From positions 1 to 64,000 of the forward strand of contig JAIBBR010000011.1 in assembly GCA_019694575.1 (NCBI GenBank): a stretch of DNA of 64,000 bases, in the 5' to 3' direction. This DNA comes from Myxococcaceae bacterium. Lineage in GTDB: Bacteria > Myxococcota > Myxococcia > Myxococcales > Myxococcaceae. The notes under the pieces are model-generated. The model was not told the DNA's origin, did not search any database, and worked only from the letters and a program-made list of their open reading frames with translations. Each line of letters begins with the position of its first letter. Position 1 is the first letter of the stretch. Both the position numbers and the translations under genes were made by a program. Positions 31,372-50,276 of the stretch are shown one piece after another.

Positions 31372-31853
31372 GGCGCTCCCTTGCCGTAGCTGACTGATTC
31401 GACCACCCGGCGCACCAGCACCCCGAAACGCGCCGCGCGGTTCGCCTTCGAGCTGACCGTCAACACCCATTTGAGCTCACCATTGCAGCCCACATGGGTC
31501 ACGCTCGAAATGCGGTTGGCCGCACTGCGCCCTGCGTCAGCGCCTCCGACATAGTCGATCACCACTTTGCGCGCCGCGGGCCGACCGTCGGCGCGCGCGG
31601 TGTCCCACCCGTCACGGCCGAGCTTCTCGAGAATTTGATCCATGCATTCTCGGGCAGCACGTTTGGGCTCGACCGGAAACACCGAGAGCTCCATTTGCCC
31701 TTCACCATCGGGAGACTCGTAGTTCTTGCCCGCTTCGGTGTCGTCGACGATCCAGTTCTTGGGGACCTTCAACGTCAGACCGTTCACCGTCACCCGGGTC
31801 AAATCGTCAGCCCCCGCCAACGTCACGGCCGCGGCCAATGCGAGCGCGATCAT
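31368..31853 (-). CDS. Unknown exported protein between the two aminomutase subunit genes
   Basis: The 161-aa product begins MIALALAAAVTLAGADD, a probable signal peptide, followed by VNGLTLKVPKNWIVDDTEAG, beta-rich strands and one Cys pair. It overlaps kamD by ATGA upstream and kamE by ATGA downstream, so all three are translationally coupled. An exported protein is unexpected between two cytoplasmic subunits. The opening resembles periplasmic proteins that follow the pattern VPxxW, but I do not recognise a named family. Confidence 0.85.
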   Translation of the reverse strand: MIALALAAAVTLAGADDLTRVTVNGLTLKVPKNWIVDDTEAGKNYESPDGEGQMELSVFPVEPKRAARECMDQILEKLGRDGWDTARADGRPAARKVVIDYVGGADAGRSAANRISSVTHVGCNGELKWVLTVSSKANRAARFGVLVRRVVESVSYGKGAP

Positions 31854-33403: not shown

Positions 33404-33520
33404 GGCCGTAGCGTATAGCCGAAGCATCGTGCCAGAGTGAAAGTCGAATGACGCCGTCTCTCGCGAACCGGTGGTTCCCCACCCTCACAGACCCCGCAGT
33501 GCGCCACGAGCCCAGCGACG

Positions 33521-34552
33521 TTAGACGTAACGCTCTTCGAACAACTTTCGCAGGCCCTCATGGCGCCGGAGCAGCTCCAACGTCAGCTCGGCATGTTTGG
33601 GCACATAGCCATTGCCCATTACCATGGTGACGTCTTTGCCCACGCCCTCGGCTCCAAGCGTGGCCTTGGTGAAGCTGGTGGCCATCGAGAAGAAGATCAC
33701 CGTACCGCCGTCGCGCACCGACAAAATCGACGCCATTTCGGTATTCGCCACTGACGCGCAGTTCACCACCAGGTCGGGCAGTATGCCGCCCGTGGCCGTA
33801 AGCACCTGCTGCATCACGTCGACTGCGCGCGTTGCATCGACCGGCACCGTGGCATCGCACAGCTTCAGCTGGCTCAGCGTGTCGAGGGCTGGGCGAGAGA
33901 TGTCGAGGGCCAACAACTTGCCCTGACCTTGCATGCTCTCACGCGCCTGAGCCAGACACAGCGCGCCACTTTTACCGGCACCCAAAATGGCCACGGTCAT
34001 GCCGGGTTTCACATAACGAGCCACCAGCGCGGGCGCCCCGCACACATCGAGCGCGGCCAGCGCCAAGGTGTCGGCCATGTCAGAAGGGAGCTTGGCGTAA
34101 ATGCCGCTGGCGAACAAAATCGCGTGCCCTTTGATATCGACCCGATCGATCTCGAGATGCACCGCTTTGATTTCTTCAATCACCAGCGGCGTCAATGTCA
34201 GACTGACCAGCGTCGCAATGCGATCGCCCACCGAAAGCACCTTCGCCGCGGGGTGCGCTGAAGACATTTCGCGCACGCGGCCAATCAACATGCCGCCTGA
34301 CCCGGTAATCGGGTTCTGCATCTTGCCGCGCTCGGCGACAATGGCGCGAATCATCTGCGCAATCGCCTGCTCGTCTTTCTGGCAGGCCTCTTTGAGTTGC
34401 TTGAATGACGCGGCGTCGATGTTCAGACACTCGACATCGATGAGCAGCTCACCGTCACGCAATGGCAAGCTGGGATTCAAACGTTGCGCCCCCTGAGGGA
34501 GCACCCCCGCCTCACCCATCACCCGAGAGAGGCCATACGCGTCGACCGTCAC
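33521..34552 (-). CDS. kdd: L-erythro-3,5-diaminohexanoate dehydrogenase
   Basis: Kdd oxidises 3,5-diaminohexanoate to 5-amino-3-oxohexanoate with NAD+. The 343-aa protein is a medium-chain dehydrogenase-like fold with the nucleotide loop AILGAGKSGALCLAQA and the Kdd-type MQNPITGSGGMLIGRV segment. It starts with GTG four bases after the upstream outer-membrane protein gene and is followed by kamD after 117 bp. Confidence 0.95.
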   Translation of the reverse strand: MTVDAYGLSRVMGEAGVLPQGAQRLNPSLPLRDGELLIDVECLNIDAASFKQLKEACQKDEQAIAQMIRAIVAERGKMQNPITGSGGMLIGRVREMSSAHPAAKVLSVGDRIATLVSLTLTPLVIEEIKAVHLEIDRVDIKGHAILFASGIYAKLPSDMADTLALAALDVCGAPALVARYVKPGMTVAILGAGKSGALCLAQARESMQGQGKLLALDISRPALDTLSQLKLCDATVPVDATRAVDVMQQVLTATGGILPDLVVNCASVANTEMASILSVRDGGTVIFFSMATSFTKATLGAEGVGKDVTMVMGNGYVPKHAELTLELLRRHEGLRKLFEERYV

Positions 34553-34556
34553 GAGA

Positions 34557-35174
34557 CTAAAAGGTGTATTTGACGCGGGGAAAGAACTGCAGCGAGATGA
34601 TATTCGGCCCCAGAATCATGCGGCCGGTGACATCAACGCCGATGCTGAAGTGATCCATATTGGTGGCGTATTCAATGCCGACACCCAGGCCCAAGTTCAG
34701 CGCTCCGTTGACCAAGCTGCCGTCAGAACGCTCCGCCGGAGCAGGCTCAAGCAACGTGTAGCCAACCATCAACTTCGGAGCCACGTACAGGCGCTCGTAA
34801 ATCTGAAAAAAGTACGCCGCCGAGGCGTCGATGAAGAACATCGTGAAGTTGTCGGTCAGCGGCGACTTGCCGTCTTGGCCCACGCAACCGTCAGGGTTGT
34901 TCACTGGCCGCGCGCCGTAGCAGTTCTGCGCATTGGCGCCGATGCCGACGTGCACGCCAAGCTCAATGGACTGGCCGATGTTGTAGCCGACACCGAGCTG
35001 CAGATAAGTCTGCAAGTTCGAGTAGCCGTCGGCGCCTCCGAAATTCACCAGACCGCCAACGTTCGTCTCGGTAAAGAAACCGCGCCGCACCGTGAGGGGA
35101 ATGCCTTCAGCGGGCTCCGCAGCTTGGGTTACCAACGGGACCACGAGCATCGACAATAAGGCTAGCTTCCGCAC
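34557..35174 (-). CDS. Outer-membrane beta-barrel-like protein heading the lysine operon
   Basis: A GTG at 35174 just after GGGAGGA gives 205 aa with a clear signal peptide (MRKLALLSMLVVPLVTQAAEP). The mature part is made of alternating aromatic/glycine strands, for example YLQLGVGYNIGQSIELGVHVGIG, and ends in VKYTF, the aromatic C-terminal signature of outer-membrane barrels. It lies 4 bp before kdd, so it may be an uptake barrel for the lysine pathway. It could instead be the last outer-membrane part of the envelope complex at 35-50 kb; the spacing favours the lysine operon. Confidence 0.75.
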   Translation of the reverse strand: MRKLALLSMLVVPLVTQAAEPAEGIPLTVRRGFFTETNVGGLVNFGGADGYSNLQTYLQLGVGYNIGQSIELGVHVGIGANAQNCYGARPVNNPDGCVGQDGKSPLTDNFTMFFIDASAAYFFQIYERLYVAPKLMVGYTLLEPAPAERSDGSLVNGALNLGLGVGIEYATNMDHFSIGVDVTGRMILGPNIISLQFFPRVKYTF

Positions 35175-35392
35175 GATTCCTCCCAACACGGCTCTTGGAG
35201 CGCGCACCTTTTACTTACCTGGCGCGCCAACGCAATAGGCAATGCCTTACTTTGTGTTTTCAGTTTTTTGCACCAGCGAAGTCGCCAAACCCAAGGCACG
35301 AACCATGGCTGTCAAATGGGTCATGGTGAACGCAGGCACGAAACAGAACGAAGCCACTCGCTAGGAGCAGCCTCGCCTGACCGATGCGGCTG

Positions 35393-37237
35393 TTACTCTT
35401 CGTCGCCGCCCGCACCGGCCGGCTTGAAGATCCAGGGGTACGTCACCGTGGTCACGCCGCCCTGCGACTCGGGGAACTTCCAGCGACGCACGCGAGAAAG
35501 CATGCAGCTCTCGGCGTTGCTGTTACCGAGCGTCGTCTCAGAAACGTTGGCGTCAGCCACCGCGCCTGCCGAATCGATGGTGAAGAGCACGGCCACCTTA
35601 CCCGACAGGTCAGGCGCCTTTTGCAGCTCTTGCTCGTAGCAGAACTTGATCTCATTCTGGTGACGGCGAATTACCTTCTCGATGTCAGCCTTTGACAGGC
35701 CACCCACCACGGTCGTCTTACCGGGCACCACGCGGGTCACCGACTTGCCAGTGCCGCCGAGATCGATCGAACCATAGCCTCCCGCACCGCGACCACCCCC
35801 CTTGGTGCCCAAGCCGCCGAGACCCAGGCCCGTGCCGCCACCACCCGCGCCCGCTCCACGCGAACCCAGACCACCGACACCGTGCGAGTCGCCCACGCCC
35901 GCTCCACCCTTGAGGCCGCCCAAAGCGTCATTCACGCCCGTGCCCAAACCACCGGGGCCGAACACGTTCGAAGCGGCGCCGTTCATCGCGCCCAACAGAC
36001 CCGCCGCCATCACCTTCTTGCGGTCTTCTTCACGCTTGTTCGCATCGACCACCGGAGCGCCCTTCTTCGAAGGGTCGGCATCTTTCTTCTTCGCTTCGAG
36101 CTTGCCGAACTTGCCCTCGTCGTCCTTGGGCTTGGCGCCTTCTTTGATGCCCGAGAGATCGACCTTTTTCACTTCTTGTTTCTTCTCGGGCTTGATCATC
36201 AACTTCACGTACTTCGACGGGTTCTGGAAGATGTCGTCGGAGTACAGGCTGTCACCCGAACCACCAAGCCACATCGCCGCGACCAACGCGACGAACGCCA
36301 TCAAGCACACTGAGGTGATCTTGAAGAAGGTGAAGTCAGCCTCTTCAAGCGTGCTCACCGTCACCGCCGCCGACGGCCGCACGTACCGAACGATGAAGGC
36401 CACGTTCTCGAAAGAGATCTGCGCCCGGTCATGCAGCCCAAGCTCAATCGCGTCAGCCCGCACGCCGCCTTCGGCTGCGCGAAGCTTGCCTTCACCCTTG
36501 AGCTGCTCCTTCGTCTTGTGGGTATCGTCGCCCTTGCTGACGATCAAACCGGCGTCATTGGGCACGTTGAGAATCGCATTGGGGCCCTTGCTGGTCGCGA
36601 GCGTGAAGAGCTGCCCCACGTCACCAGAGAACACATTGAACGCCACGCCAGCACCTTCACCGATGGTTACCGGGGCGCCATCACCGAAGTGCTTCACGTT
36701 GATCAGCGTGTCGCCCCACAACAGCGCGACTTGCAGAACCTTCGAGTCTTCAGACGGAGTGGCCTCGGCCGGGAGCGGCTCATTGAAGAGCATCGCCGCG
36801 TTGGCCCCCGTACCCGCCAGCGCCTGAGGTGGAGCAGGAGGCGGCTTCACTTTTTTCTTGTCATGGTCTGACGAGCCGTTCACATGCACCCCATTGGTCT
36901 TCTTTTCTGCCGGCTTCTCGGTCTTCTGCTCACCGAAGACAACCCGGACTTCTGACCCACCCACGGTCAAAGTGTCGCCCGAGATCAAGGTCACCGGGTC
37001 TTTGATCACCTGATCTTTGAACCGGGTGCCATGCTCACTGCCCAAGTCGATCGCTGTCACCTGGCCCGTCTTCTCGACCTTGAGCATCACGTGCAGGTTC
37101 GACACTTTGGGATCAGGAATTTTGATCGCCGCGCCGGCGCCGCTACCGACGATCACGCTCTCGAGATCAGAGATCGATTCGCTGGTGGTGCCATCAGGGT
37201 TGGTGATGCGGAGAGTGATGGGGGTCTTCTTGGCCAT
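35393..37237 (-). CDS. FHA domain, membrane helix and AgmX/PglI (TonB-like) C-terminal domain protein, GltG/NfsG type
   Basis: This 614-aa inner-membrane protein has a cytoplasmic FHA domain (~15-105), a Pro/Lys linker, a second conserved region (~145-275), one TM helix (~300-320, VCLMAFVALVAAMWL), a long Lys/Gly-rich periplasmic linker and a C-terminal AgmX/PglI domain (~515-605, IEKVIRRHQNEIKFCYEQEL). This order is that of Myxococcus GltG (PglI) and its spore-coat paralog NfsG. It should couple a motor or cytoplasmic signal to the outer membrane. The ATG at 37237 is preferred to a TTG at 37246. Confidence 0.88.
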   Translation of the reverse strand: MAKKTPITLRITNPDGTTSESISDLESVIVGSGAGAAIKIPDPKVSNLHVMLKVEKTGQVTAIDLGSEHGTRFKDQVIKDPVTLISGDTLTVGGSEVRVVFGEQKTEKPAEKKTNGVHVNGSSDHDKKKVKPPPAPPQALAGTGANAAMLFNEPLPAEATPSEDSKVLQVALLWGDTLINVKHFGDGAPVTIGEGAGVAFNVFSGDVGQLFTLATSKGPNAILNVPNDAGLIVSKGDDTHKTKEQLKGEGKLRAAEGGVRADAIELGLHDRAQISFENVAFIVRYVRPSAAVTVSTLEEADFTFFKITSVCLMAFVALVAAMWLGGSGDSLYSDDIFQNPSKYVKLMIKPEKKQEVKKVDLSGIKEGAKPKDDEGKFGKLEAKKKDADPSKKGAPVVDANKREEDRKKVMAAGLLGAMNGAASNVFGPGGLGTGVNDALGGLKGGAGVGDSHGVGGLGSRGAGAGGGGTGLGLGGLGTKGGGRGAGGYGSIDLGGTGKSVTRVVPGKTTVVGGLSKADIEKVIRRHQNEIKFCYEQELQKAPDLSGKVAVLFTIDSAGAVADANVSETTLGNSNAESCMLSRVRRWKFPESQGGVTTVTYPWIFKPAGAGGDEE

Positions 37238-37297
37238 AACGTTCAATACCTAAACAAACGGGAAAAACAGTCGCGGACCGCGGCCGTCCGAAACGTT

Positions 37298-37561
37298 TTA
37301 CAGGTTATCGACCGACTTCTGGAGCTCGGGGTTAAAGTTCTCTCGAACCTTGATAAGGCTCTTGAATCGCGTTCGGTTTTTCGAAATCGCGTAGCTGCCT
37401 TCGGGTTTGGTGAGCTCGCCTTCGAGCTGAACGTCAGTGAAGTCGATCACCGTCTTCTTACGAACGACGACTTTGTCGGCTTCTTGCACCACGTTTACTT
37501 TGCCTTGGGCGAATGCCACCGAAGCCAGGGCCATCGCTACCACCGCCACTTGCCGCTTCAT
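37298..37561 (-). CDS. Small exported protein in the envelope-complex operon
   Basis: The 87-aa product has a clean signal peptide (MKRQVAVVAMALASVAFAQ) and a short mature domain with VVVRKKTVIDFTDVQLEGELTKP. It lies between the GltE-like and GltG-like genes, where Nfs/Glt loci carry a small F gene. AAGGAGG lies ~6 nt before the ATG. I do not recognise a family; GltF/NfsF equivalence is by position only. Confidence 0.75.
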   Translation of the reverse strand: MKRQVAVVAMALASVAFAQGKVNVVQEADKVVVRKKTVIDFTDVQLEGELTKPEGSYAISKNRTRFKSLIKVRENFNPELQKSVDNL

Positions 37562-37640
37562 GAGAGCCTCCTTGGTACGTCTTTTATGACAACTACCTAC
37601 CTGATGTGGTTCCGAGAAAAAAGTGCGCGGACACTGGGTT

Positions 37641-37667
37641 TTTTAAAGCCTGGCCGTATTTGCCAGG
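37641..37667 (-). terminator. Weak hairpin after the GltE-like gene
   Basis: On the minus strand CCTGGC-AAATACG-GCCAGG is followed by CTTTAAAAAA. The stem is 6 bp and the T run short, so this is at most a partial terminator that would reduce expression of the small exported protein and GltG-like genes. Confidence 0.35.
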
Positions 37668-37684
37668 GGTTATGAAAAACGCCG

Positions 37685-39007
37685 CTATTTCGGAGCGTTA
37701 CCGCCTTCAGGGGCGGCCGGAGCAGGCGCCGGTGCTGTTTCTTCCTTCGCCGCCTCGTCAGACACCTTGTCGAGCAATGCCGCACCACCTGCTTCGGCCT
37801 TCGGCTTCTCCTTCGCTGCCGCCTGCGCGGGAGGCGCCTGCGCACCGCTCTTCTGCATTGCCACCAGCCCCTTCACCTTGGCGTCGATGAGCTGTTTGTC
37901 AGACGCGGTGGTCGTCGAAAGCGCCGCACACTTCTCGAGGTAGCTGATCGCTTTTTCCCAACCTGATTTTTCAGCCGAGTAGGCCCAGCCTGCGCCACAG
38001 ATCGCCTCGGGCGTTTCAGCCTTCAAGGTGAGCACCTTTTCGAAAACCTGCCCCGCAGCGATACCCTTCTTCGGGTCGCGGCCCCTTTGCCCATCGAGCG
38101 CATAGCCGTACGCCAGAAACGCCTCGTACGACGTGGGATCTAACTGGGTAGCCTTGGCGAACGACTTTTCGGCATTCACATAGTCGCGGTACGACAACGC
38201 CATGGCCCCCAAGTTGACGTGGCCCGGAGCGAACTTGTCGTTCAATGCGACGGCCTTTTGAAACTGGCCGAGCGCCAACTGCCGCTCATCGAGCTTCAAA
38301 TAAATCATGCCCAGGTTGTTGTAGACACCGGGGTCTTTGTCATCGAGCTTCTTGGCGTTACCGCTAATGAATTCGGCCAAGCGGTAATTACCCTGATCGA
38401 AATAAATGAGCGTCAGGTTCTTGTAAGCATCGGCATTGTCTTTGGCCTTCACCAGTACACTGCGCGCGGTCGCCTCGGCCTTGTCGAACTTCTTCGCCAA
38501 GCGGTAGGCCACAGTGAGGTTGTTGAGCAACGCCACATCACCTTCGTTGCCAGGCGTCTTGAGCGCCTGCTCGTAAAGCGCAATCGCCTTTTCGAACTTG
38601 TCTTGCAACCGGTACACCTTGCCCAAATTGAGCAACGTAGAACGGTGCTGCGGGTCGATCTCGTACGCCGCTAAATAGTGCTTTTCGGCCTGTGCCAGCT
38701 GACCTTCGCGCTCGGCGATCACACCTAAGTTGTAGTGCGCCGAAACCAGTTTCGGTTGCAACTCGAGCAGCTTCGAGAACGCCTGCTTCGCACCATCGAG
38801 GTTACCGGCGTCGAAGGCCGCCACGCCCGCGGCAAACAGCCCCTGCGGCGTATTGGCAGGGGTCACTTGCGGCGTCACCGTTTCGGCCGGCTTCACCACT
38901 TCTTGCTGCGTGGCGCAGCCCACGGCCACCAAGGCCAGTGCGGCTGCCAACGCCCCATTTCGCATCGACTTGGTCACCTTCAACTCCTGTTTCGACATAG
39001 TCGTCAT
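37685..39007 (-). CDS. TPR lipoprotein, GltE/AglT type
   Basis: The 440-aa protein has a lipoprotein signal ending in AVGC and then about nine TPR units (for example AHYNLGVIAEREGQLAQAEKHYLAAYEIDP). A Pro/Ala/Lys-rich tail of ~60 residues follows. GGAGG precedes the ATG by 8 nt and the gene starts 4 nt after the GltD-like gene. In Myxococcus the equivalent AglT/GltE is a TPR protein of the envelope complex; here it would be anchored to the outer membrane facing the periplasm. Confidence 0.85.
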   Translation of the reverse strand: MTTMSKQELKVTKSMRNGALAAALALVAVGCATQQEVVKPAETVTPQVTPANTPQGLFAAGVAAFDAGNLDGAKQAFSKLLELQPKLVSAHYNLGVIAEREGQLAQAEKHYLAAYEIDPQHRSTLLNLGKVYRLQDKFEKAIALYEQALKTPGNEGDVALLNNLTVAYRLAKKFDKAEATARSVLVKAKDNADAYKNLTLIYFDQGNYRLAEFISGNAKKLDDKDPGVYNNLGMIYLKLDERQLALGQFQKAVALNDKFAPGHVNLGAMALSYRDYVNAEKSFAKATQLDPTSYEAFLAYGYALDGQRGRDPKKGIAAGQVFEKVLTLKAETPEAICGAGWAYSAEKSGWEKAISYLEKCAALSTTTASDKQLIDAKVKGLVAMQKSGAQAPPAQAAAKEKPKAEAGGAALLDKVSDEAAKEETAPAPAPAAPEGGNAPK

Positions 39008-39010
39008 CGC

Positions 39011-42000
39011 TTACCCCTCCACCGGCGAAACTGACGAGACACTGGGAGACGCTTTGGCCGGCTCATTCACCGGCGCCTGGGTGGGCTTCTTTTCGATCAC
39101 TTTTTCAAGCGAACCACCAATAAAGAATTCAGACCCACGGTACGGCACGTCGCGTACCTTGGCGTAGGCCCCTGGTCGGTACTTGTTCAACCGGTCTTGG
39201 GCCAAAATCGTCCACTCGTTGTAAACCGACAGCTCGTAACTCTTGGCGAGCGCCTTCTCGAGCGCTTCAATCGCCTTTTCTTCGAGGGGGAAAGCGCGGT
39301 TCTCGAGCTCACCGCGGTACATCGAGAGCTGATCTTCATCGAGCCCCTTCGGGTCGGGCGAGTCGAGGAAGTTCTGCGCGAAGTCGGCGTACATCAGGCC
39401 AATGCGGGTGAGCGCGGCAATACCGTACTCGCCGTTACCAATCGCCAACACGTCGGTATACGCCTTGAGCACTTCAGGCGTCTTCTTGGTCTTGGTCTGC
39501 AGGTCGCTCTTGAGCGTCTTCACGTTGTTCAACTTGATCGCCAAGTAACCGTTCCACGTGGGTTCCAATTGATAGAAGCGCACGTGGGCGTACGCGGCCA
39601 TCGCGCGGTCGCTCTTCTTGTCGGCGTCGCTCAGCTTTGGGTACATGGCGGCAATTTCTTTCGCCGTCTTGTCCATCGCGCTGGCGTCTTTAAGCAATTT
39701 GTACGCGAGGAACTGGCGGTACTTCGCGTCGATACGCTTCACGTCGTTGACGCGTGTGTCTTTGGCATAGGTGGTGAGAAAGCTGTCGTACACCTTGATC
39801 GCCTCGGCCCACTTTTTGTCTTTCTCGTGAATCAGGCCAATGTTGAAGGCAATGTCGGGAACGTCTTTCTTCTCTTTGAAGCGCGCGATGTAGCGGCTGT
39901 AAGCAGCGATCGCCTTGTCAGACTTGCCCAAGCCTTCCCACCACAGCGCCGCGTTGAACTGTGCGTCAGCGACCCACTTCTCGGCTTCTTTCACCAGCTC
40001 ATCGCGTTCTTTCTTGAACTGCTCTTCCTTCTCTTTGGTGGCGAACTTGCGGGGCGCGGCAATCACCGGCTTGTCTTTGCCCTTGGCGTCTTTGGCGGTG
40101 GTCTTGCTCTTTGCCGCGGCTTTCGCTTCTTTCTCTTTCGTTTCTTTTTCTTTCTTCAGCAAGTCTTTGATGTTGTCGAAGCCGATCGCCTTGGGGCCCG
40201 CCGACTCGTCGTACGAGGCAATGAAACCTTCGTAACCTTCAGCCGACTTCTCGAAATTGGCGACCTTCTCGTACGCCACCGCCAAGCGGTACCGCACCTT
40301 CAAGTCAAACTGCGTGAAAGGGTACTCCTTCAACACGCGCTCACCGGTCTCAATCACCTTATCGAGTTCACCCGCTTCATCGAAAATGATCATCGCGTAG
40401 GTCAACGCGCGGTCAGCGTTGTCAGACGTGGGGAACTCCGCGACAAATTTGAGGAACTCGCCCGCGGCCTGCTTGGGGTTCTTTTCTTTCTTGTAGATGA
40501 CTTCGTCGACGTACTTGTACTGCGAGCCTTCGACGACCGCCGCGGTGCGCTTGGTGAAGTCGGTACCGGCCTTGGCCAGCTTCTTGTTGGCCAAGAACTG
40601 ACGCGACAATTTGTTTAGCTCGAGCCATTCTTGTTTCTCTTCGAGCACCGCCATCGAGAGGTCGGCCGCTTCTTGCGAGCGCTTCTCTTCAGGCCACTTC
40701 AAAATAATCTCGCCAAACCGGCGGGCCGCGTCGACGAAGTGGTTGCGGTCGTAAAAAATGACCGCCGCCTGATACCGCACGTCGATTTCTTCAGCGTTGT
40801 TCGGGTAGCGCGCAATGTAGTTGTCGCACGCGGCGACCAACTTTTCTTCTGCCTTGGTGAGCTTCTGTTCTTCGAGCTCTTTGGCCGAGCGCTTTTGAAT
40901 TTTGGCTTGTTTTTGAACTTCGCCCTTCTTCTTCGTCTCGTCGACCTTGTCGCCCTGCTTCAGCTCGCTCTTTTGGAGCAAGCCCCGCTCGATACGCACC
41001 AGCTTGTCGTGCGCGAGAATGGCGTTGTAAGCCGACGACTTGCGGTAGCTCTCGTTCGAAGCTTCTTTGGCAGTGTCGCGGTTGGGAATCTTGAACGCGG
41101 TCACTTCATCGTACTGCTTGGCCGCCGCTTCCCACTCCTCTAACGCCCACAGAATTTCGGCGTAGAAAAACTTCAGGTTGTAGGCGAAGTCTGAAACGAA
41201 GTTCTCGTCTTCACTGCTGGCAAAAGCATCGACATACTGTTTGTAAATGTCGCGTGCCAGGCGGTACGTATCAACTTGCTTCGTGCGCTGCGCTTCTTGG
41301 TGGTACTCGGTGACGATGGTGCGCATCGCTTCTTCGGCGACGTTGAAGCCGTTTACCAGCACTTCTTTCTTCGACTCGTTCGCCTTCCACCAGGCACTGC
41401 CGGGGCGATACAGCTCGGCCAACACGCGAACCTCAGCCTTCACCTTGTCGCGCTGGCGCAGCCCTTCGTAGCTCTTGATGATCGCCTGCTGATAGTCAGG
41501 CGCCTGCTCGGCCATGGCGTTCTCGGCGAGCATGAAGCGAAAAGTCTTGATCGCGCTGTCGTGATGACCCGCGTCGGCGAGCTGGTATGCCAGACGGGTG
41601 GTCAGCTGAAACTGCTTCTTCTTACCCGCATGCGCCTTGAAGTACGCCATCGCGTCATCAGCGCGGTTTAGCTGAACAAACATCACCACCATGTCGTTTA
41701 AGCCTTCGTTCTTCAAGTCGGTCATCGACTTGCCTTGTTTCTCGGCAAACTCGACGACGTCTTGCAGCTTCTTGAGCGCCTTCTCGTGCTCACCCGCGTT
41801 GAAATCACACCAGGCGAGCTTGTAGAGCGCGTACGACTTGATCTTCGGGTTGGGCGACGCGAACGCTTTTTCGTACATCTCTTTGGCGCGCGAGAGGTTG
41901 TTGGCGACGTCGAAGTAGTGGTTACCCAACTGCACATAGGTGTCGGCGACGAATTTTGAGCCCGGGTAATGCTTGATCAGCTCTTCGTAGCGCTTGACGG

Positions 42001-42583
42001 CCTGATCTTTCTTGCCAATTTCATAGAGGTTGTAGCCGAGCGAGAAGAGCACTTCGTCTTTGCGATCGTAAGCCGGGTACTCACGCAAGATCGTCTCGTA
42101 CAAGCGCATCGTCTCGGAACGGTACAGCTCGCTCTCGCGGTGATCTTCTTTCGCCTCGGCCACTTTCTCGCCACGGTTCTTCGCTTCGTCGGCCTTCTTT
42201 TCTTCGGCCGCGTACTTGGTCATTTCTTTGCGATAGAGGTATTTCGACTTCTCCCAGTACATTTCCGAAAGCTGAAAGAGCAGCTCGGCTTTTTGCGGCG
42301 AGCCGTCTTCGATTTTCGGAATGATCTTCTTCAAGCTGTCGATCGCTTCGTCGCGCTTCTTGTCGGCGATCGCCTCTTTTTCGGCGTCTTCTAACATCGG
42401 CGCGTCTTTGAACGACGCGGGGCCACGGCGCTCGGGCGGCTTCTTGCCCTTCTTGTCGTCTTTCGCGGGGGCGGTGGTGGTGGCCTTTTTCGGCTCGACT
42501 TTCTTCTTGTCTGCCGCCGTAGCGCTCGTCACGAGCAACGCAGCCAAAATCACAGAGAGATGACGAATCGCAGTCACAGGCAT
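39011..42583 (-). CDS. Large periplasmic TPR protein, GltD/AgmU type
   Basis: At 1190 aa this is the largest protein of the window. It has a signal peptide (MPVTAIRHLSVILAALLVTSATA), a Lys-rich linker, then a very long array of TPR-like helical pairs (YETILREYPAYDRKDEVLFSLGYNLYEIGKK, and many more). A highly charged Lys/Glu/Ala stretch lies around residues 770-805. AgmU/GltD of Myxococcus has the same size and repeat build. It would span the periplasm as a scaffold. AAGGAG lies ~7 nt before the ATG. Confidence 0.87.
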   Translation of the reverse strand: MPVTAIRHLSVILAALLVTSATAADKKKVEPKKATTTAPAKDDKKGKKPPERRGPASFKDAPMLEDAEKEAIADKKRDEAIDSLKKIIPKIEDGSPQKAELLFQLSEMYWEKSKYLYRKEMTKYAAEEKKADEAKNRGEKVAEAKEDHRESELYRSETMRLYETILREYPAYDRKDEVLFSLGYNLYEIGKKDQAVKRYEELIKHYPGSKFVADTYVQLGNHYFDVANNLSRAKEMYEKAFASPNPKIKSYALYKLAWCDFNAGEHEKALKKLQDVVEFAEKQGKSMTDLKNEGLNDMVVMFVQLNRADDAMAYFKAHAGKKKQFQLTTRLAYQLADAGHHDSAIKTFRFMLAENAMAEQAPDYQQAIIKSYEGLRQRDKVKAEVRVLAELYRPGSAWWKANESKKEVLVNGFNVAEEAMRTIVTEYHQEAQRTKQVDTYRLARDIYKQYVDAFASSEDENFVSDFAYNLKFFYAEILWALEEWEAAAKQYDEVTAFKIPNRDTAKEASNESYRKSSAYNAILAHDKLVRIERGLLQKSELKQGDKVDETKKKGEVQKQAKIQKRSAKELEEQKLTKAEEKLVAACDNYIARYPNNAEEIDVRYQAAVIFYDRNHFVDAARRFGEIILKWPEEKRSQEAADLSMAVLEEKQEWLELNKLSRQFLANKKLAKAGTDFTKRTAAVVEGSQYKYVDEVIYKKEKNPKQAAGEFLKFVAEFPTSDNADRALTYAMIIFDEAGELDKVIETGERVLKEYPFTQFDLKVRYRLAVAYEKVANFEKSAEGYEGFIASYDESAGPKAIGFDNIKDLLKKEKETKEKEAKAAAKSKTTAKDAKGKDKPVIAAPRKFATKEKEEQFKKERDELVKEAEKWVADAQFNAALWWEGLGKSDKAIAAYSRYIARFKEKKDVPDIAFNIGLIHEKDKKWAEAIKVYDSFLTTYAKDTRVNDVKRIDAKYRQFLAYKLLKDASAMDKTAKEIAAMYPKLSDADKKSDRAMAAYAHVRFYQLEPTWNGYLAIKLNNVKTLKSDLQTKTKKTPEVLKAYTDVLAIGNGEYGIAALTRIGLMYADFAQNFLDSPDPKGLDEDQLSMYRGELENRAFPLEEKAIEALEKALAKSYELSVYNEWTILAQDRLNKYRPGAYAKVRDVPYRGSEFFIGGSLEKVIEKKPTQAPVNEPAKASPSVSSVSPVEG

Positions 42584-42637
42584 GAGAACTCCTTCAAAAA
42601 AACGGCTTCACCCGTGCCCGAAAATTGGGAAGGGCTT

Positions 42638-42671
42638 AAAAAAAATTTGCCGCGCACCCTACACCAGGGTG
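42638..42671 (-). terminator. Terminator-like hairpin between GltC-like and GltD-like genes
   Basis: On the minus strand CACCCT-GGTGT-AGGGTG is followed after about ten bases by TTTTTTTT. It sits in the 208-bp gap that splits the envelope locus. Another stem (AGCCCA...TGGGCT) lies just upstream of it. The downstream genes may have their own promoter in this gap. Confidence 0.5.
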
Positions 42672-42791
42672 TTTCTCGAAAGAAAGCCCAGGGGGTACGC
42701 GCGGTTTCTTGGGCTCGAGAGGGTACTCATTCAGCTTCGGGGTGAAGCCTGCAGATCAACGCGCATCGGGGCGGCGACCACGAGCACCGCT

Positions 42792-44297
42792 TCATTCTGC
42801 TGCTTTCGGGCAACCGTTGCGCAACGTGTACTGGTAGTAGCCGATTTCGTCGCGCCAAAATTCGCCCTGAAACTTCCAGTAGTTCCAGTTCTCTGCGGGC
42901 ATACGCGGACGGTAGAGCTTTTGCTTCGCCAGCATTGCCTTCTGATCAACACCCGCTTCGGCCAATTCTTTTTCGGCCTTCGATGTCTCGAAGCGAATGA
43001 TTTCGGCGGTGTCTGAATATTCTTTCAACATGCGCTGCGCTTCGATCAAGCGGCTCTTCGCGGCGCTGCCAGCGACGAGCTTCATCACCACGTCTTTGTT
43101 GCCATCGAGCAACGATATCAACTCAGGGGCCAACTTCGCGGCTTTCCACCCTTGGTTTGATTCGACGATGCGGCGCTCACTTTCGATTTCGGCGAACAGG
43201 CGCTCTAAGTCGAGCATCTTCTCGTTGCTCCGCACCCAATTGAGCACCGGCTTGGGAAGCTTGCTGTCAGGCGACGACACCAACTTGTAAAACTGCTCGT
43301 TCTCTTTTTGCGCGTCGATCAGCGGCTTCATCGCCTCGGCCATGGGGCCGTAAATTTCGTCGTACGCGGCGAGCGCTGACTTGGCCTCTTCGTACAAGCA
43401 ACTGAAGTAGTACGTCGTGCTCTTCAGAATCCACGATTCGGGTTGAAACGCACCGGCGAACTGTGGAGCGTGCAACGCTTGCAACGAACCCAGCGCACCA
43501 CCGAAGTCTTCGTTCTGAAACCGTGCGAAGCCGTTTTCAAATAGCGCTACGTCCCAATAGCGAGAGAAGCGCGGCACTTTCTCGTACCATTCGACGCTCT
43601 TCGCGTATTCGCCCATGTTGTAGTACGCGCGACCCAAGCCCAACATCGCCAGCTGCTGCGTCTGCACCAAGTCTTTTTGATTCTTGAGCTGATTTTCGAT
43701 CACGCTCTCGAAGGCCTTGATCGCATCTTTGTATTGCGGGCCACCCGGGTACCGCGGATCAATCAACACAATGCCGAGCAAGTATTGCGACTTGGCGTGC
43801 ACCGCAGCGTCTTTGGGCACTGCTTCGAGAAACGAACGCGCCTCTTCGTAACGCGCCTTGCGCTGGCTGATGGCGCCGATCAAATAGTTGATGCGCGCCA
43901 ACGTTTCAGTAGGCAGCGTGGCCCACTCGTCGTTGTACTGCGCGTTAAGCAAGCTGGGGAGCAAGTCACGCTCGTCGAGCGTTTCTTGCATGTTGACCAC
44001 GCCCTCGACCGCCTTCAGGTACATGGGGTGCGTCTTGCCGTGCTTGATGATCGCCGCATAGCCCATGCCGGCGAGAAACGGCAGGCCCTGCTTGGCGAGC
44101 GACGCGGCGCGGTAATATTCAGCCTTGGCGCGAACATCGGCGTCGACCACTGTCTGCTCAGCCTCAAAAAACAGCTGCGCCGACTTGTTGTAGTCACCCG
44201 AATTGAAGGCCGACAGCGCCTTGTTGTAGGTCGCCAGATCTTGCGCGTTCGCTGTAACTGCGGCGACGGCTGCAAAGAGCACCGAAAGACGTTTCAT
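42792..44297 (-). CDS. Periplasmic TPR protein, GltC/NfsC type
   Basis: The start MKRLSVLFAAVAAVTANAQ gives 501 aa with a signal peptide; an ATG four codons upstream at 44309 is the alternative. The N-terminal ~290 residues form TPR-like pairs (YNKALSAFNSGDYNKSAQLFFEAE, LGLGRAYYNMGEYAKSVEWYEKVP). The C-terminal part is coiled-coil-like and ends with a WNYWKFQGEFWRDEIGYYQY segment. GltC is the periplasmic partner of the GltA/GltB barrels in Myxococcus, and here it directly follows the two barrel genes. Confidence 0.83.
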   Translation of the reverse strand: MKRLSVLFAAVAAVTANAQDLATYNKALSAFNSGDYNKSAQLFFEAEQTVVDADVRAKAEYYRAASLAKQGLPFLAGMGYAAIIKHGKTHPMYLKAVEGVVNMQETLDERDLLPSLLNAQYNDEWATLPTETLARINYLIGAISQRKARYEEARSFLEAVPKDAAVHAKSQYLLGIVLIDPRYPGGPQYKDAIKAFESVIENQLKNQKDLVQTQQLAMLGLGRAYYNMGEYAKSVEWYEKVPRFSRYWDVALFENGFARFQNEDFGGALGSLQALHAPQFAGAFQPESWILKSTTYYFSCLYEEAKSALAAYDEIYGPMAEAMKPLIDAQKENEQFYKLVSSPDSKLPKPVLNWVRSNEKMLDLERLFAEIESERRIVESNQGWKAAKLAPELISLLDGNKDVVMKLVAGSAAKSRLIEAQRMLKEYSDTAEIIRFETSKAEKELAEAGVDQKAMLAKQKLYRPRMPAENWNYWKFQGEFWRDEIGYYQYTLRNGCPKAAE

Positions 44298-44311
44298 CGT
44301 GGTGTCCATGG

Positions 44312-45376
44312 TTAGAAAATCACCGAAAAGCCGGCGTAAAAACCAACGTTGTTGAGCACGTCAGAAGAGCCCTCTTCAACGAACTTCTTGGCGATGTTCA
44401 GCTCAGTCACCAGCGAGTTGCCGGTGTCGGGGTCTTGAAACGCCTGGTACTGGCAGCCTGGGTTCAGCCGGTCAGCCAAGGTGTTGAGCGGCTTGGTGGT
44501 CTCGTTCATCGCCTTGAGTGACGCCCCGTCGCAGCCGTTCACCCGGTCGACGCGCGCGGTGTAAACCACGTCGGTGACTTCTAAGCGAATGGCGAAGCGC
44601 TCGCCCAATTGCAACCGAAAACCCGCGCCCAGCGAGCCTAAGAAGCGCGGAGCCGTTTGGCCAAAGCGGGCCGCCACGCCATTGGCGGGGTCAGCCGGCA
44701 ACAGCTGCAGACGCGTCGCACCCGCTCCGGCGCCGCCCGAGATCACGAACGAGAAGTGCGCAAGCGTGTTTTCATACCACGCGAACTTACCGTACAGCGG
44801 CGTCACTTCGACGCCACCGAGCGCACCCCAGGTCCACAACAGCGAGGTGGCGGGCGTGGCTGAAGCGCGCAGCTTCTTCACCAGCTCTTCGTTGAAACTC
44901 GATTCAGACGCGTACCAGTTGTACTGGCCCCACGCCTTGAGCGCGAAGTTTTCATGCAAGTGCCACAACACTGCCATGGCACTGCCGGCGTGCTGAGTGA
45001 ACTTGCCATTCACTTGCACCGTGGCCGGGTAGATCACCACTTCGCGCTGTTTGCTGTCAGAGAACTGTTTCGCTTCGACGATGTGTACCGCGACATTGGG
45101 GTTATAGAGCGGAGCGCCCGACACCAACTTCTGCGCATCAGCGCTGCTGCCTGTCGCTGCAGGAGCCGGAGCGGTCACCACAGCGTCACCTTTCTTGGGC
45201 GCATCGCTGGGCGTCGCGGGTTTGTTGGGGGCCGGCTTGGCGTCGTCTTCGTCATCGTCGTCGTTCGCCGCCGGGGCTTGCGCGGTGAACACCTTGGTCA
45301 TTTCGCTCGGCCAACGCAGCGCCGCTTGCGCGCCCGCTGCCCACAAAAGCCCAGCCATCAAAAGTGAAGTTCTCAT
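44312..45376 (-). CDS. Outer-membrane beta-barrel, GltB/NfsB type
   Basis: The start MRTSLLMAGLLWAAGAQA gives 354 aa with a signal peptide, then an Asp/Pro/Ala-rich linker (~25-75) and a C-terminal barrel of alternating strands ending in GFYAGFSVIF. Linker plus barrel plus terminal Phe is the outer-membrane pattern. The position between a smaller barrel gene and the GltC-like gene fits GltB/NfsB. No pore specificity can be read from sequence. Confidence 0.8.
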   Translation of the reverse strand: MRTSLLMAGLLWAAGAQAALRWPSEMTKVFTAQAPAANDDDDEDDAKPAPNKPATPSDAPKKGDAVVTAPAPAATGSSADAQKLVSGAPLYNPNVAVHIVEAKQFSDSKQREVVIYPATVQVNGKFTQHAGSAMAVLWHLHENFALKAWGQYNWYASESSFNEELVKKLRASATPATSLLWTWGALGGVEVTPLYGKFAWYENTLAHFSFVISGGAGAGATRLQLLPADPANGVAARFGQTAPRFLGSLGAGFRLQLGERFAIRLEVTDVVYTARVDRVNGCDGASLKAMNETTKPLNTLADRLNPGCQYQAFQDPDTGNSLVTELNIAKKFVEEGSSDVLNNVGFYAGFSVIF

Positions 45377-45391
45377 GTCAGTGGCGCTCAC

Positions 45392-46165
45392 TTAGAAAAT
45401 GAAGGAATAGCCGAGATCGAGCAGCACCACGTTGGTGATGCCGGGTGAGCTCGCCAACGTGCCTCCCTGCGCTCCGTTGGCGCTGGCCGGCACGTTCTCG
45501 TAGTACGAGTCGAAGTATGACCAGTCGCGCACTTCAATACGAACCACGTGATGCTCGTTGATGAAGAAGCGAAAGCCCGCCGCCAAAGAAACAACGGGAG
45601 CAAACTTCTGCTCGGTGAGGTACTCGTTGCAGGCGGTAATTGCATTCATCGAGCCGCCGCGCACCGGCTGAGTGCACAACACCGCTGACTCGCGGTCGAG
45701 CAACGCCCCGCCCGCCCCCGCCCATAAATAGAGCTGAAAATGCACCGGCACTTCGGCGACCAATGAAATCTTGCCGTAAATGGGTTGCCAACGCGCGCCG
45801 ATTGCCCCGTTGACGCTCATGCGCCACAGACCCGACACGTCGCTGAACTTCTCGACGCTGGTCGACAGCAACTGCTCACGCACCCGGTTGGTCAAGCTGG
45901 TGTTGCGCGAATAAGCCCACCCCGCGCGCAGCTCGACAGCAAAGGAGTCGGCGATGTTGTAGCCAAGGTTCGCTTGAAAATTGTAGTGCTCGGTCAGCCG
46001 CGAAACCAACGTGAGGCCAGCCGACGCGCCGAGCTCGAACTTGCCGGCCGGCGTAAAGAGGCGGTTACGCACCACCACCTTTTCGATGAGCTCGTCGTCG
46101 TCAGCCCAGGCCGGAGCGCTGGTCAACAGCACCGCGGCAATTCCCCAAAGCATTTTCATTTTCAT
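45392..46165 (-). CDS. Outer-membrane beta-barrel, GltA/NfsA type
   Basis: The 257-aa product starts MKMKMLWGIAAVLLTSAPAWA (signal peptide) and continues with amphipathic strands such as GASAGLTLVSRLTEHYNFQANLGYNIADSFAVELRAGW. It ends with LGYSFIF, an outer-membrane C-terminal signature. It is immediately upstream of the larger barrel gene and downstream of the VWA lipoprotein gene. The pair corresponds in order and size to NfsA/NfsB and GltA/GltB of Myxococcus. Confidence 0.8.
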   Translation of the reverse strand: MKMKMLWGIAAVLLTSAPAWADDDELIEKVVVRNRLFTPAGKFELGASAGLTLVSRLTEHYNFQANLGYNIADSFAVELRAGWAYSRNTSLTNRVREQLLSTSVEKFSDVSGLWRMSVNGAIGARWQPIYGKISLVAEVPVHFQLYLWAGAGGALLDRESAVLCTQPVRGGSMNAITACNEYLTEQKFAPVVSLAAGFRFFINEHHVVRIEVRDWSYFDSYYENVPASANGAQGGTLASSPGITNVVLLDLGYSFIF

Positions 46166-46183
46166 CGTCGTAGCGGCTCCACG

Positions 46184-47650
46184 TCACGGACAGCTGTTCT
46201 GAAAATTGGCTTGCACGTCGTAGCAAATCTCAACGGCGCTCAACGATTCGGGTACCGACGAGCCCTCAAAACGCACGACATTGCGCAGACTCGACCCCTC
46301 ACATTTCACGTAGCCCGGCGCATTCGACGTTGCGTGAGTGGTGACATCAATACGCTTGGCGCAACGGTTCGAACGGCAGAATTGGCCCATGGGGCAGTTA
46401 CCGTCGATTTGGCAGTTGGCTGCCGTCGGAGCCGACACATAGAGATCGAAGCCCGAAGCAATGTTGCCCATTGGTCGCACGTCGGGGCCGCGGCTCAACC
46501 GGTATTCTCGGCGCAGGCCTGAAGCGGCATAGCCCAACGCCTTCAACGCGTCGGTGAAGTTGTCATCGCAGATCGAAACGGCTGTACCACCGGTTTCGGC
46601 AGCGACTTTGACGTATCGGCTACCGAAGTAACCCACGTCGAAGCCCGCATCGACCGCGTAGGTACCCGACTTGGGGCAACTGCCGCCGTCTCGGGCGCGG
46701 CAACAGCCTACATGCTGACTCGTATCACCATATTGCGCGGGCACTCCGGCATCAGGCCCGTCGTCGAGCGCAACGATCGCCGCCACCGCCACCGCGTCAG
46801 CATTGCCGTAGCCCTTGTAGGTCTCAAAGAAGCGCGTGAAGTACTCGGTCGAGCCGAACGCGCCCACGCCGCCCAACGCCTGATCAGACGCGCAGCGGCA
46901 GCCGGGGTCAGCCGTACAAGTGGCCTGCCGTACCACCGGGTTGCATGAAGCATCGTCTTCATCGCTAACGAAGATCACGTACAACGCTGCGTCGGGGCGC
47001 ACGAAGCGTTCTCCTGCTGTGCCGGTAATGTTGTCGGGGTTGGTCAGCGCCAAATACGCCGCGTAAAGACCGCGCTCCTGCGCGCTGCCTAAGAGACCCA
47101 CGTTGGCCATCGAGTTGAAGGCTGCTTCGGCCGAGCTGGTGGCCATCGCCACATTCGGCGAGGTGTTGCATAACAGCCCACCTGTCTGCTGGGGCGTGCA
47201 CGCAACGAAGTTGCCTGACAAGCCGCCGACTGACCACGGCCGCAATTGCCCGCGGGTAAGCGCACTGTCGGTATCAGTAGAGACGACGCCAATATGAAAG
47301 TCGATCGGCGGGTTGGCCTTGAGTAACTCGCTCAAAAACTCACTGATTTTTGATTTTAGGCGCTGCTGCTTCGACTCCATCGAGCCCGAGGAATCGACCA
47401 CCCACAAGATGTCGACCTTGCGCACCGAGAGCTGCTGATAAAGGTCGCACTGCTTGGGAACATTGATGCCGAACCGATCGTTCTCGCGGGTGTCGTCGAT
47501 CAGCACCTGCGGAGTGCCTTCATCGACCGTCGGGGTACCCGGCACCAGCGTGTACGACTCGATAATGCGCCGGGTGCGCGAGCGATCGCCACAGCCATAG
47601 GCAAGCAAGGCGAGAACGGCAATAACACTGAAGACCCTACCCAGTTTCAT
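46184..47650 (-). CDS. VWA-domain lipoprotein, CglB-like
   Basis: The 488-aa product has a lipoprotein signal ending in LAYGC (Cys20) and a von Willebrand A domain starting at VDILWVVDSSGSM. Asp86, Ser88 and Ser90 make the DxSxS metal (MIDAS) site, with a second acidic cluster in FVSDEDDASC. Many paired cysteines follow, including a Dickkopf-like CQIDGNCPMGQFCRSNRC. In Myxococcus CglB is an outer-membrane VWA adhesin of the gliding complex. Here the gene lies 18 bp before the GltA-like barrel, so the adhesin and barrels are linked. Confidence 0.83.
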   Translation of the reverse strand: MKLGRVFSVIAVLALLAYGCGDRSRTRRIIESYTLVPGTPTVDEGTPQVLIDDTRENDRFGINVPKQCDLYQQLSVRKVDILWVVDSSGSMESKQQRLKSKISEFLSELLKANPPIDFHIGVVSTDTDSALTRGQLRPWSVGGLSGNFVACTPQQTGGLLCNTSPNVAMATSSAEAAFNSMANVGLLGSAQERGLYAAYLALTNPDNITGTAGERFVRPDAALYVIFVSDEDDASCNPVVRQATCTADPGCRCASDQALGGVGAFGSTEYFTRFFETYKGYGNADAVAVAAIVALDDGPDAGVPAQYGDTSQHVGCCRARDGGSCPKSGTYAVDAGFDVGYFGSRYVKVAAETGGTAVSICDDNFTDALKALGYAASGLRREYRLSRGPDVRPMGNIASGFDLYVSAPTAANCQIDGNCPMGQFCRSNRCAKRIDVTTHATSNAPGYVKCEGSSLRNVVRFEGSSVPESLSAVEICYDVQANFQNSCP

Positions 47651-47743
47651 AAGACGCTACGTCAAACGACCGGCCTGTAGAACGGCGCGCTCCCTAGCAC
47701 ACCGCGCGAAAAAAAGTGACATAGGGTTTCGGTACTTAACGGG

Positions 47744-49582
47744 TCACCTCAAGCTATTGGGAATGCAGGCCTGCACCGATTGCTCGGTGACGGCTTTGAC
47801 CACGTCACACGCCCAATCGACCGGACAGTCACCCGAGTCGCTGCACGGCATGGTGCAGATTGGGCCTGAATCTTTGCGAATGCACAAACCTTGCGCGCAC
47901 GCCGCGGGGCCAAACGTGCAACTTGCGCCCGCTTCACCGCCACCTTCAGGGAAACAAACGTCGACATCGTTACCGTCGGCGATCTTCGCCTTGCGACAAG
48001 CGAACCCCGGCGCGCACGAGATGCCTGCACCGCACGGTGTGGTGCACACCCGCGCAGTGCCCAAGTCTAAGCAGGTGCCCGTCTGGCAGGGAGGACGCCC
48101 CGGCGTACAGTCGTCGCCGAACAAGCCGCCAAACGGTGTGCACACCCCCGAGCCACTCTTGGGCCCAGTGGCGGTGCGTTTCTCTTCGGCGCAGTCATAG
48201 CCACTGCTTGACGACTCACAGCAGCGAAAACGCGTATCGCCACACTCAGCGTCGGCCTTGCACGCATGGCTGCACAGTGAAGCGTTACCGACCTTCAGGC
48301 AAACACCTGCCACACAGTCTTGCGCGCCGTTGACACTGCAGTCTTCACCCAAACGGTGCGTACCCGACTGACAGGTACCCCGCTGAGGAATGCAGTAGCT
48401 CTTCATCGCCCCCGACGCGTCACTGACCGCCTTGCAAACAAAGCCAGGCCCGAAACTGCGCAAACATGCGGCGTCATCAGCACACGGGGTTGCGCAGAAC
48501 GCCTCACCCTTGAATGCACAGTCTGTACAGTTATTTACGATGCAGCGGTTCTCAGGGTGACTGCCCCGACGGCAGTCGTCATTGTCGAAGCACGGCGCAC
48601 ATTCTCGACCGTCACCCGCCCCCTGACACTGGTTTTGAACGCAGCTCTTGCCCAAACCGCACTGGCGCAGTTGGCTCACTTCTTCAGTGCCGTCGCAATA
48701 ACCCTTGCAGCTGTTTGATACCGGCACGCACTGAAATGGCCCGCTGACATTGGGGTCATCGGTCTTGCCGATGTTGGTACAAGCAAAGCCACTGGGGCAC
48801 TCGGGGTTCTGCGCGCTATCGAGGTCTTCAGGTACGCACCCAGGCGTCGGGCACAGATTTTTCTTAGGGTTGCAGTCACGGCCGCAGAACGTTTCACCCG
48901 ACACCACGTTGCGCACGCATACATCGTGAGGCCCGCCGCACTCCGCGTCGCCCTGGCACGGCTCGCACAACACCTTGCCGAAATTGCACGACTGGGTAAG
49001 CGGCACACACTGTTTGATCAGCGCCTTTTCTTTACCCGCCGGAATCTCTTGGCAACCAAAGCCCGCGGGGCAGCTGTCGTTGGCGCCACATGCCGACGTG
49101 CAGAACTTTTCACCCGAGCCAACCGCTTCGAAGCAAGCGCCCCCTTGCGGGCATTGCTCAGAGTCTTGGCAAGGCGAGCACAAAATACGGTCGACTTTGA
49201 TGTAACAGTTGCCGGTTTCGGCGTTGCAGACATGGCCCGACGGACAGTCGGTTGACTGCTTGCAACCCGTCAGCTTGCGACACACTTTGCCGTAACGACC
49301 GGCTGCCTGACAGAGATAGCCATTGGGGCATTCGCTGTCGTTGGTGCATTCTTGGGTGCAGAACCCCGACGCAGAATCGAGCGCTACGCAGAGGCCCGAA
49401 ATGCATTGAGGGTTGCTGTCGCCCGGCGCCACCGTGGGAAAACACGGCTCACCCAGAGCCAAGTTGTCATTCGGAGCGGTGCTGCAGGCACTGGCCAGCA
49501 GCATCACCAGCGCCACCAAGCCAAAGGCGCCTCTACGGGAAAACCCGCTCAAGACCGAACCGTGATTGCCCGAAGCCTTCAC
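47744..49582 (-). CDS. Very Cys-rich multi-module lipoprotein
   Basis: A GTG at 49582 with GAGGG upstream gives 612 aa; longer starts would overlap rplC. The lipoprotein signal ends at LASAC. The mature protein is a chain of about ten repeats of CxxDxxCxxGxxCxxxxxG.xxxC type (for example CTNDSECPNGYLCQ), resembling Dickkopf-like Cys modules. It is likely a rigid disulfide-rich surface stalk. It stands between rplC and the CglB-like gene, in the place where a surface partner of the complex would be expected. CglD equivalence cannot be claimed. Confidence 0.82.
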   Translation of the reverse strand: MKASGNHGSVLSGFSRRGAFGLVALVMLLASACSTAPNDNLALGEPCFPTVAPGDSNPQCISGLCVALDSASGFCTQECTNDSECPNGYLCQAAGRYGKVCRKLTGCKQSTDCPSGHVCNAETGNCYIKVDRILCSPCQDSEQCPQGGACFEAVGSGEKFCTSACGANDSCPAGFGCQEIPAGKEKALIKQCVPLTQSCNFGKVLCEPCQGDAECGGPHDVCVRNVVSGETFCGRDCNPKKNLCPTPGCVPEDLDSAQNPECPSGFACTNIGKTDDPNVSGPFQCVPVSNSCKGYCDGTEEVSQLRQCGLGKSCVQNQCQGAGDGRECAPCFDNDDCRRGSHPENRCIVNNCTDCAFKGEAFCATPCADDAACLRSFGPGFVCKAVSDASGAMKSYCIPQRGTCQSGTHRLGEDCSVNGAQDCVAGVCLKVGNASLCSHACKADAECGDTRFRCCESSSSGYDCAEEKRTATGPKSGSGVCTPFGGLFGDDCTPGRPPCQTGTCLDLGTARVCTTPCGAGISCAPGFACRKAKIADGNDVDVCFPEGGGEAGASCTFGPAACAQGLCIRKDSGPICTMPCSDSGDCPVDWACDVVKAVTEQSVQACIPNSLR

Positions 49583-49610: not shown

Positions 49611-50276
49611 TTACTTCTTCTTCTTGTGGCTCTCACGAATGGCCGACTTGATCGACGGGCGCACAATCACCACGCCTTCGTTGTGACCGGGAATGCCACC
49701 CTTCACCAAAATCAAATTCTTCTCTGTAATCACTTCGATTACTTCGAGGTTCTGCGTGGTGACTTGCTCTACACCATAGTGACCCGGCAGCTTCTTGTTG
49801 GGGTACACGCGGCCCGGCGTTTTACGCTGACCGATGGCGCCGGGGTGACGGCGGTATTCGTGGGTACCGTGGGTCTGACCGAACCCGCGAAAGCTCCACC
49901 GCTTCATGACACCTTGGTAGCCACGGCCCTTGGTGATGCCGGTGACATCGACCATTTGACCCTTGATGAACAGGTCAGCTTTGACTTCGTCACCGACATT
50001 GAGCTTGGCGACCTCTTCAGCCGACATGCGAAACTCTTTGACGATCTTGCGGCCTGGAGCACCCGCCTTCTTGAACGAGCCCTTTTGCGCCGCGGTCAGA
50101 CGCTTCTCTTTCGCCACACCAAAGCCGAGAGTGACTGCCGAGTATTTGTCTTTCTCAGGTGTGCGCTTGCCCACCACGATGAGCGAGGTGATGTCGATCA
50201 CCGTCACGGGAACCATGTTTCCGCCTTCGACGAAAACTTGGCTCATACCGACCTTCTTACCGATCAAACCCTTCAT
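49611..50276 (-). CDS. rplC: 50S ribosomal protein L3, away from the S10 operon
   Basis: L3 reaches towards the peptidyl transferase centre and is one of the first proteins in 50S assembly. The start MKGLIGKKVGMSQ is preceded by GAGGAAG and gives 221 aa; the core KRWSFRGFGQTHGTHEYRRHPGAIGQRKTPGRV is typical and includes the Gln methylated by PrmB in other bacteria. It is normally between rpsJ and rplD, but here it lies 35 kb from them and heads the envelope-complex operon, 28 bp upstream of the Cys-rich lipoprotein gene. Confidence 0.97.
   Translation of the reverse strand: MKGLIGKKVGMSQVFVEGGNMVPVTVIDITSLIVVGKRTPEKDKYSAVTLGFGVAKEKRLTAAQKGSFKKAGAPGRKIVKEFRMSAEEVAKLNVGDEVKADLFIKGQMVDVTGITKGRGYQGVMKRWSFRGFGQTHGTHEYRRHPGAIGQRKTPGRVYPNKKLPGHYGVEQVTTQNLEVIEVITEKNLILVKGGIPGHNEGVVIVRPSIKSAIRESHKKKK

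Follow-up and report, generated by a model that had tools for sequence, protein, structure and literature searches.

The window analysed here, a 64,000-nt stretch of DNA from a Myxococcaceae bacterium (contig JAIBBR010000011.1 of assembly GCA_019694575.1), carries an operon whose orthology with nfsA-H, the spore-coat operon of Myxococcus, is well supported by sequence relationships. The nfs machine itself is known, and what is new is a variant of it headed by two lipoprotein genes, one encoding a Cys-rich protein (CysR) and the other a VWA protein that is a candidate surface adhesin. We consider it probable that this operon is nfs in an adhesin-bearing, probably ancestral form, and that the spore-forming genera have lost the adhesin pair, with the machine now handling Exo spore-coat polysaccharide. 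All genes of the operon lie on the minus strand with intact reading frames, in the order CysR, VWA, A-B-C-D-E-F-G-H, as follows.

49611..50276, minus strand: L3 (rplC), marker of the conserved nfs site (TIGR03625, 253.8 bits)
47744..49582, minus strand: CysR, Cys-rich lipoprotein of 612 aa, lipobox C33 (Myxo_Cys_RPT match, weak)
46184..47650, minus strand: VWA lipoprotein of 488 aa with intact MIDAS, candidate surface adhesin (Pfam VWA_2 below cut-off; NF052240, 57.5 bits)
45392..46165, minus strand: NfsA-type outer-membrane barrel (TIGR04565, OMP_myx_plus, 140.5 bits)
44312..45391, minus strand: NfsB-type outer-membrane barrel (TIGR04565, OMP_myx_plus, 61 bits)
42792..44309, minus strand: NfsC, GltC family, TPR (NF033756, 198.3 bits)
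39011..42583, minus strand: NfsD, TPR, 1190 aa (TPR matches; D tree and AU tests)
37685..39007, minus strand: NfsE, GltE family, TPR lipoprotein (NF033758, 120 bits)
37298..37561, minus strand: NfsF, CglF/GltF family, 87 aa, signal peptide (NF033764, 66.4 bits)
35393..37246, minus strand: NfsG, with FHA domain, transmembrane helix and AgmX/PglI (TonB-like) tail (NF033760, 294.6 bits; NF033768, 114 bits; FHA match; G tree)
34557..35207, minus strand: NfsH, GltH/CglE-type barrel (NF033755, 167 bits, cut-off 70)

An earlier note on this DNA had listed the genes from the VWA lipoprotein to G, and every one of them is present and intact, in that order and on the minus strand. Its description of a single-locus operon of Nfs order, with a MIDAS-bearing VWA protein and a Cys-rich lipoprotein at the head, is borne out by the profile matches, the motif and the recurrence of the order in relatives. 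NfsH, the gene after G, lies beyond the interval that the note covered and completes the A-H set; it also follows G in those orthologous loci that are long enough to include it. CysR starts 28 bp after L3, the CysR-VWA gap is 93 bp and the VWA-A gap 18 bp, and the window operon contains no I, J or K genes. A scan of the region for promoters and terminators was uninformative, with 0 promoter-like sites and a terminator count at chance level; among the terminator-like sites, a 13-pair stem directly after G (35347-35377) could set H apart, at regional counts that do not exceed chance. The next gene past L3 (50452) runs in the opposite direction, so L3, which at 49611-50276 marks the nfs site phylum-wide, appears to lie outside an S10-type ribosomal operon. 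On the other side, 4 bp after NfsH (31850-34552), genes resembling 3,5-diaminohexanoate dehydrogenase and a lysine 5,6-aminomutase subunit were recognized by inspection, and the dehydrogenase-like gene is kept in several loci that extend to it.

The identity of the machine is set by gene order, chromosomal site and phylogeny together. In the complete Myxococcus-type genome G121, L3 is followed by A-H at 3.95 Mb (L107), with gene lengths near those published for nfsA-H. Profiles built from the window-type proteins scored 346 (A), 477 (B), 690 (C), 1524 (D), 772 (G) and 250 (H) on the nfs proteins of this genome, compared to ~430 on GltD, 274 on GltG and ~20 on GltH. In the D tree the window-type and Myxococcus-type nfs loci form one clade (support 100), nested within an L3-linked Nfs clade that also takes in other classes of the phylum, and grouping the window with Glt was rejected by the AU test (p-AU 3.5e-43). 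The G tree agrees, placing the window on the Nfs side, and the window G protein scores 294.6 bits against the NCBIfam GltG model, below its cut-off of 650 bits. A-H stand in order in one locus, NfsD and NfsG cluster with their Nfs counterparts, and the locus adjoins L3 at the chromosomal site that nfs occupies in Myxococcus-type genomes. The shared site and order, the D and G trees and the AU result rule out a Glt machine that is new or merged, as well as a Glt-Nfs hybrid. The earlier note had spoken of a Glt/Nfs-type trans-envelope machine, of which the Nfs order and the single locus stand; the operon is not a hybrid, being an nfs orthologue at the nfs site in a genome that has its canonical Glt elsewhere. 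The TPR proteins group with Nfs, and the D and G trees place the operon on the Nfs side and away from Glt.

Comparison with the Nfs of Myxococcus xanthus (nfsA-H, MXAN_3371-3378; PMC2875238) shows the same A-H order and similar C-D, F-G and G-H spacers, with L3 as neighbor (in the Myxococcus-type genome) and I/J/K likewise missing from the operon; the window differs in adding CysR and VWA between L3 and nfsA, and its genome gives no ExoB match. With the Glt complex (GltA-K) and CglB the operon shares homologous trans-envelope parts and a MIDAS-bearing VWA lipoprotein as likely surface partner, but it falls in a separate clade by the AU test, has no I/J/K, and carries within the operon a VWA protein of another family. 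The window's genome has a separate canonical Glt cluster (C15, GltG 924.8 bits), and it also holds a G5-like cluster (C164) and, at C8, the counterpart by orthology of Myxococcus G4; the G4 and G5 Glt-like clusters of Myxococcus are paralogous to the window operon, from which the D and G trees separate them as distant clades. The same genome encodes an AglR orthologue (C192) 74% identical to G121 AglR and followed by two ExbD-type genes, a MXAN_3003-5-type motor set (C159, assigned by position in G121), and, away from the operon, a CglB orthologue (C63, 48%). A MotA/MotB-like pair in this genome (L104:6394-9205) hints at flagellar or related genes.

The VWA protein has its lipobox cysteine at C20, and the MIDAS residues D86-x-S88-x-S90 and D230 are invariant in an alignment of 19 sequences. 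CysR has many invariant Cys among 14 orthologues and is a possible stalk or partner of the candidate adhesin. The earlier note had called the VWA protein CglB-like, while naming a grouping away from CglB as a finding that would count against its reading, and away from CglB is where the protein groups. The NF033757 model (gliding_CglB) gave no match to the window VWA up to E 1, as compared to 589.6 bits for Myxococcus-type CglB, BLASTP between the two reached only E=0.05, and a profile-to-profile comparison aligned 34 columns. Identity with CglB was rejected on these results; the true CglB orthologue of the genome is at C63. Alignments to other VWA lipoproteins encoded in the same genome and to CglD-like proteins covered 264-303 columns (hhalign E 5e-22 to the CglD-like set), and by these profile comparisons the window VWA belongs to a different family of VWA lipoproteins, nearer to CglD-like proteins than to CglB. 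Kinship is also detectable to the Bdellovibrio MIDAS adhesin Bd0875 (NF052240), which like the CglD-like proteins is a VWA lipoprotein with a MIDAS; the window protein scores 57.5 bits, far under the equivalog cut-off of 700 bits, and the portion of the Bd0875 source that we consulted describes no link to a Glt/Nfs operon. A 411-aa VWA lipoprotein adjoining a Lon protease gene was considered as the Myxococcus-type CglB and dropped, the true CglB lying at G121:3602120 (D56xS58xS60 motif, NF033757). L243:2121-3371 holds CglB of a Myxococcus-type genome, and some genomes (G066, G103, G070 and G150) have two or three CglB-like copies.

A PDB search with the VWA family found no sequence relatives. 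An AF2 model of medium quality (pLDDT 66.7) matched integrin beta headpieces and the pilus adhesin SpaC in fold, with a TM-score of ~0.3; as whole-chain TM-scores are low, the likeness is limited to the domain level.

The arrangement is not confined to the window. The order L3-CysR-VWA-A..H recurs in 15 other genomes of the family, complete as far as their contigs extend, and with such repetition it is not due to chance. A VWA search of 96 family genomes returned, apart from the window's own genome, 20 genomes with orthologues of ~60-69% identity, from ten further genera, and none in Myxococcus-type genera. The named hosts of the close relatives are all MAGs, labelled Myxococcaceae, Archangium, Myxococcus or unclassified myxobacteria/Deltaproteobacteria. 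Loci from families f1, f7, f8, f9 and f10 have the CysR-VWA pair between L3 and A, and an f2 locus has it upstream of A; it is absent, with L3 adjoining A, in the Myxococcus-type f1 genera, g25, f4, f6, f11, f18 and f19. In G161, a 4.35-Mb single-contig genome from f9, the operon is present in full. A scan of the phylum detected VWA in 32 of 193 genomes, from seven families (f1, f2, f5, f7, f8, f9 and f10) of one class, lying upstream of D wherever D was listed on the same contig. The VWA and CysR trees match the operon tree at supported forks. Parsimony requires 5 changes, and alone does not separate one gain with several losses from repeated gains; since position, pairing and gene trees agree, we favor a single origin of the pair followed by multiple losses. 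The earlier note had raised an ancestral form as one option, and we consider it the probable one.

The spore-coat exporter ExoB was searched with a query from the Exo locus of G121, a locus identified by position and by neighboring Wza-, Wzz- and sugar-transferase-type genes. Except for g17, every tested Myxococcus-type genus had ExoB, and no match was found in 9 of the 11 genera with VWA-nfs, the window's own genome included. ExoB and VWA occur together in two genera, g10 and g11, and two others, g17 and g25, have nfs and neither of them. Counted over 21 genera the contrast between VWA and ExoB is significant (Fisher p=0.009), but on the tree it collapses to two independent pairs, within which ExoB mostly does not differ, so that it is not independent evidence, and the association was not upheld as such.

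These observations bear on an alternative that we regard as unlikely, in which the window holds a conventional nfs machine for the spore coat, CysR and VWA assist in binding another spore-coat or capsule polymer, and sporulation proceeds with another exporter. The nfs orthology is clear, the two VWA genera g10 and g11 also have ExoB, and Nfs carries Exo polymer in M. xanthus (PMC3858216), all of which fit such a role; however, the ExoB match is missing in most VWA-nfs genera, the spore-coat Nfs of Myxococcus functions without CysR and VWA, and MIDAS domains are characteristic of adhesion, if not confined to it.

Slightly less probable still is that CysR and VWA are mere neighbors, a lipoprotein pair that uses the L3-proximal promoter and is independent of the Nfs complex. 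The longer gap of 93 bp between CysR and VWA and the persistence of the machine without the pair in many lineages would be in line with this. It is opposed by the 18 bp between VWA and A, by a linkage kept over seven families with congruent gene trees, and by the report that the related Glt complex of M. xanthus recruits the VWA adhesin CglB (PMC13104615). A second gliding-type machine in which Glt/Nfs genes and a CglB adhesin were recently fused, close to the framing of the earlier note, is very improbable: the gene content does resemble Glt plus an adhesin, but the trees contradict it, with the window-Glt grouping rejected by the AU test, the VWA protein is not CglB, and the genome has separate canonical Glt and CglB.

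An adhesin-bearing Nfs could work as follows. An AglRQS-type proton motor encoded elsewhere would drive NfsG, and NfsG, by way of C-D-E-F, would act across the periplasm on a platform of the barrels A, B and H in the outer membrane. The platform would display and move the MIDAS lipoprotein, with CysR as its stalk or partner, and metal-dependent adhesion to a substrate, a neighbor or a prey cell would thereby be coupled to work at the inner membrane. In the spore-forming genera the pair would have been lost, and Exo spore-coat polysaccharide would be handled instead. In M. xanthus spores Nfs is driven by AglRQS, and motor-driven transport has been described for both Agl-Nfs and Agl-Glt (PMC3858216); the Glt complex of this species recruits CglB, according to a review (PMC13104615). 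From an Nfs moved by AglRQS and a CglB recruited by Glt we infer, by analogy, that the window machine displays and moves its own MIDAS lipoprotein, and by the same analogy it is plausible that an inner-membrane signal is coupled to the candidate adhesin. More tentatively, at a little under an even chance, Nfs may originally have been a motor-driven adhesin machine of myxobacteria whose spore-coat role in Myxococcus was derived by loss of the adhesin pair and a switch to secreted polysaccharide as cargo, the window keeping the ancestral form in a lineage alive today.

Whether gliding or sporulation arose more recently was not decided by Luciano et al. (2011; PMC3169522), and later work regarded glt and nfs as having duplicated recently, in a terminal deltaproteobacterial branch (PMC3858216); in our D and G trees several families of the order have both paralogues. 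With an L3-linked nfs clade extending across classes, both paralogues in several families and the adhesin in seven, the proposed exchange of cargo is directly testable, and on this view myxobacteria without the Exo spore-coat exporter should have a second machine for adhesion or transport.

Several loci depart from the layout of the window. The C-D gap measures 2.4 kb at L097:7285-9661, compared to ~0.2 kb in the window; H occurs in two tandem copies in G104, and G103 has an additional partial G (L125:1516-2800 and L086:601-1761). In a genome of family f19 (L141:1970-15180), a different VWA lipoprotein gene immediately precedes another Glt-like B-C-D-E-F-G-H cluster, which may represent a separate association of such a machine with an adhesin.
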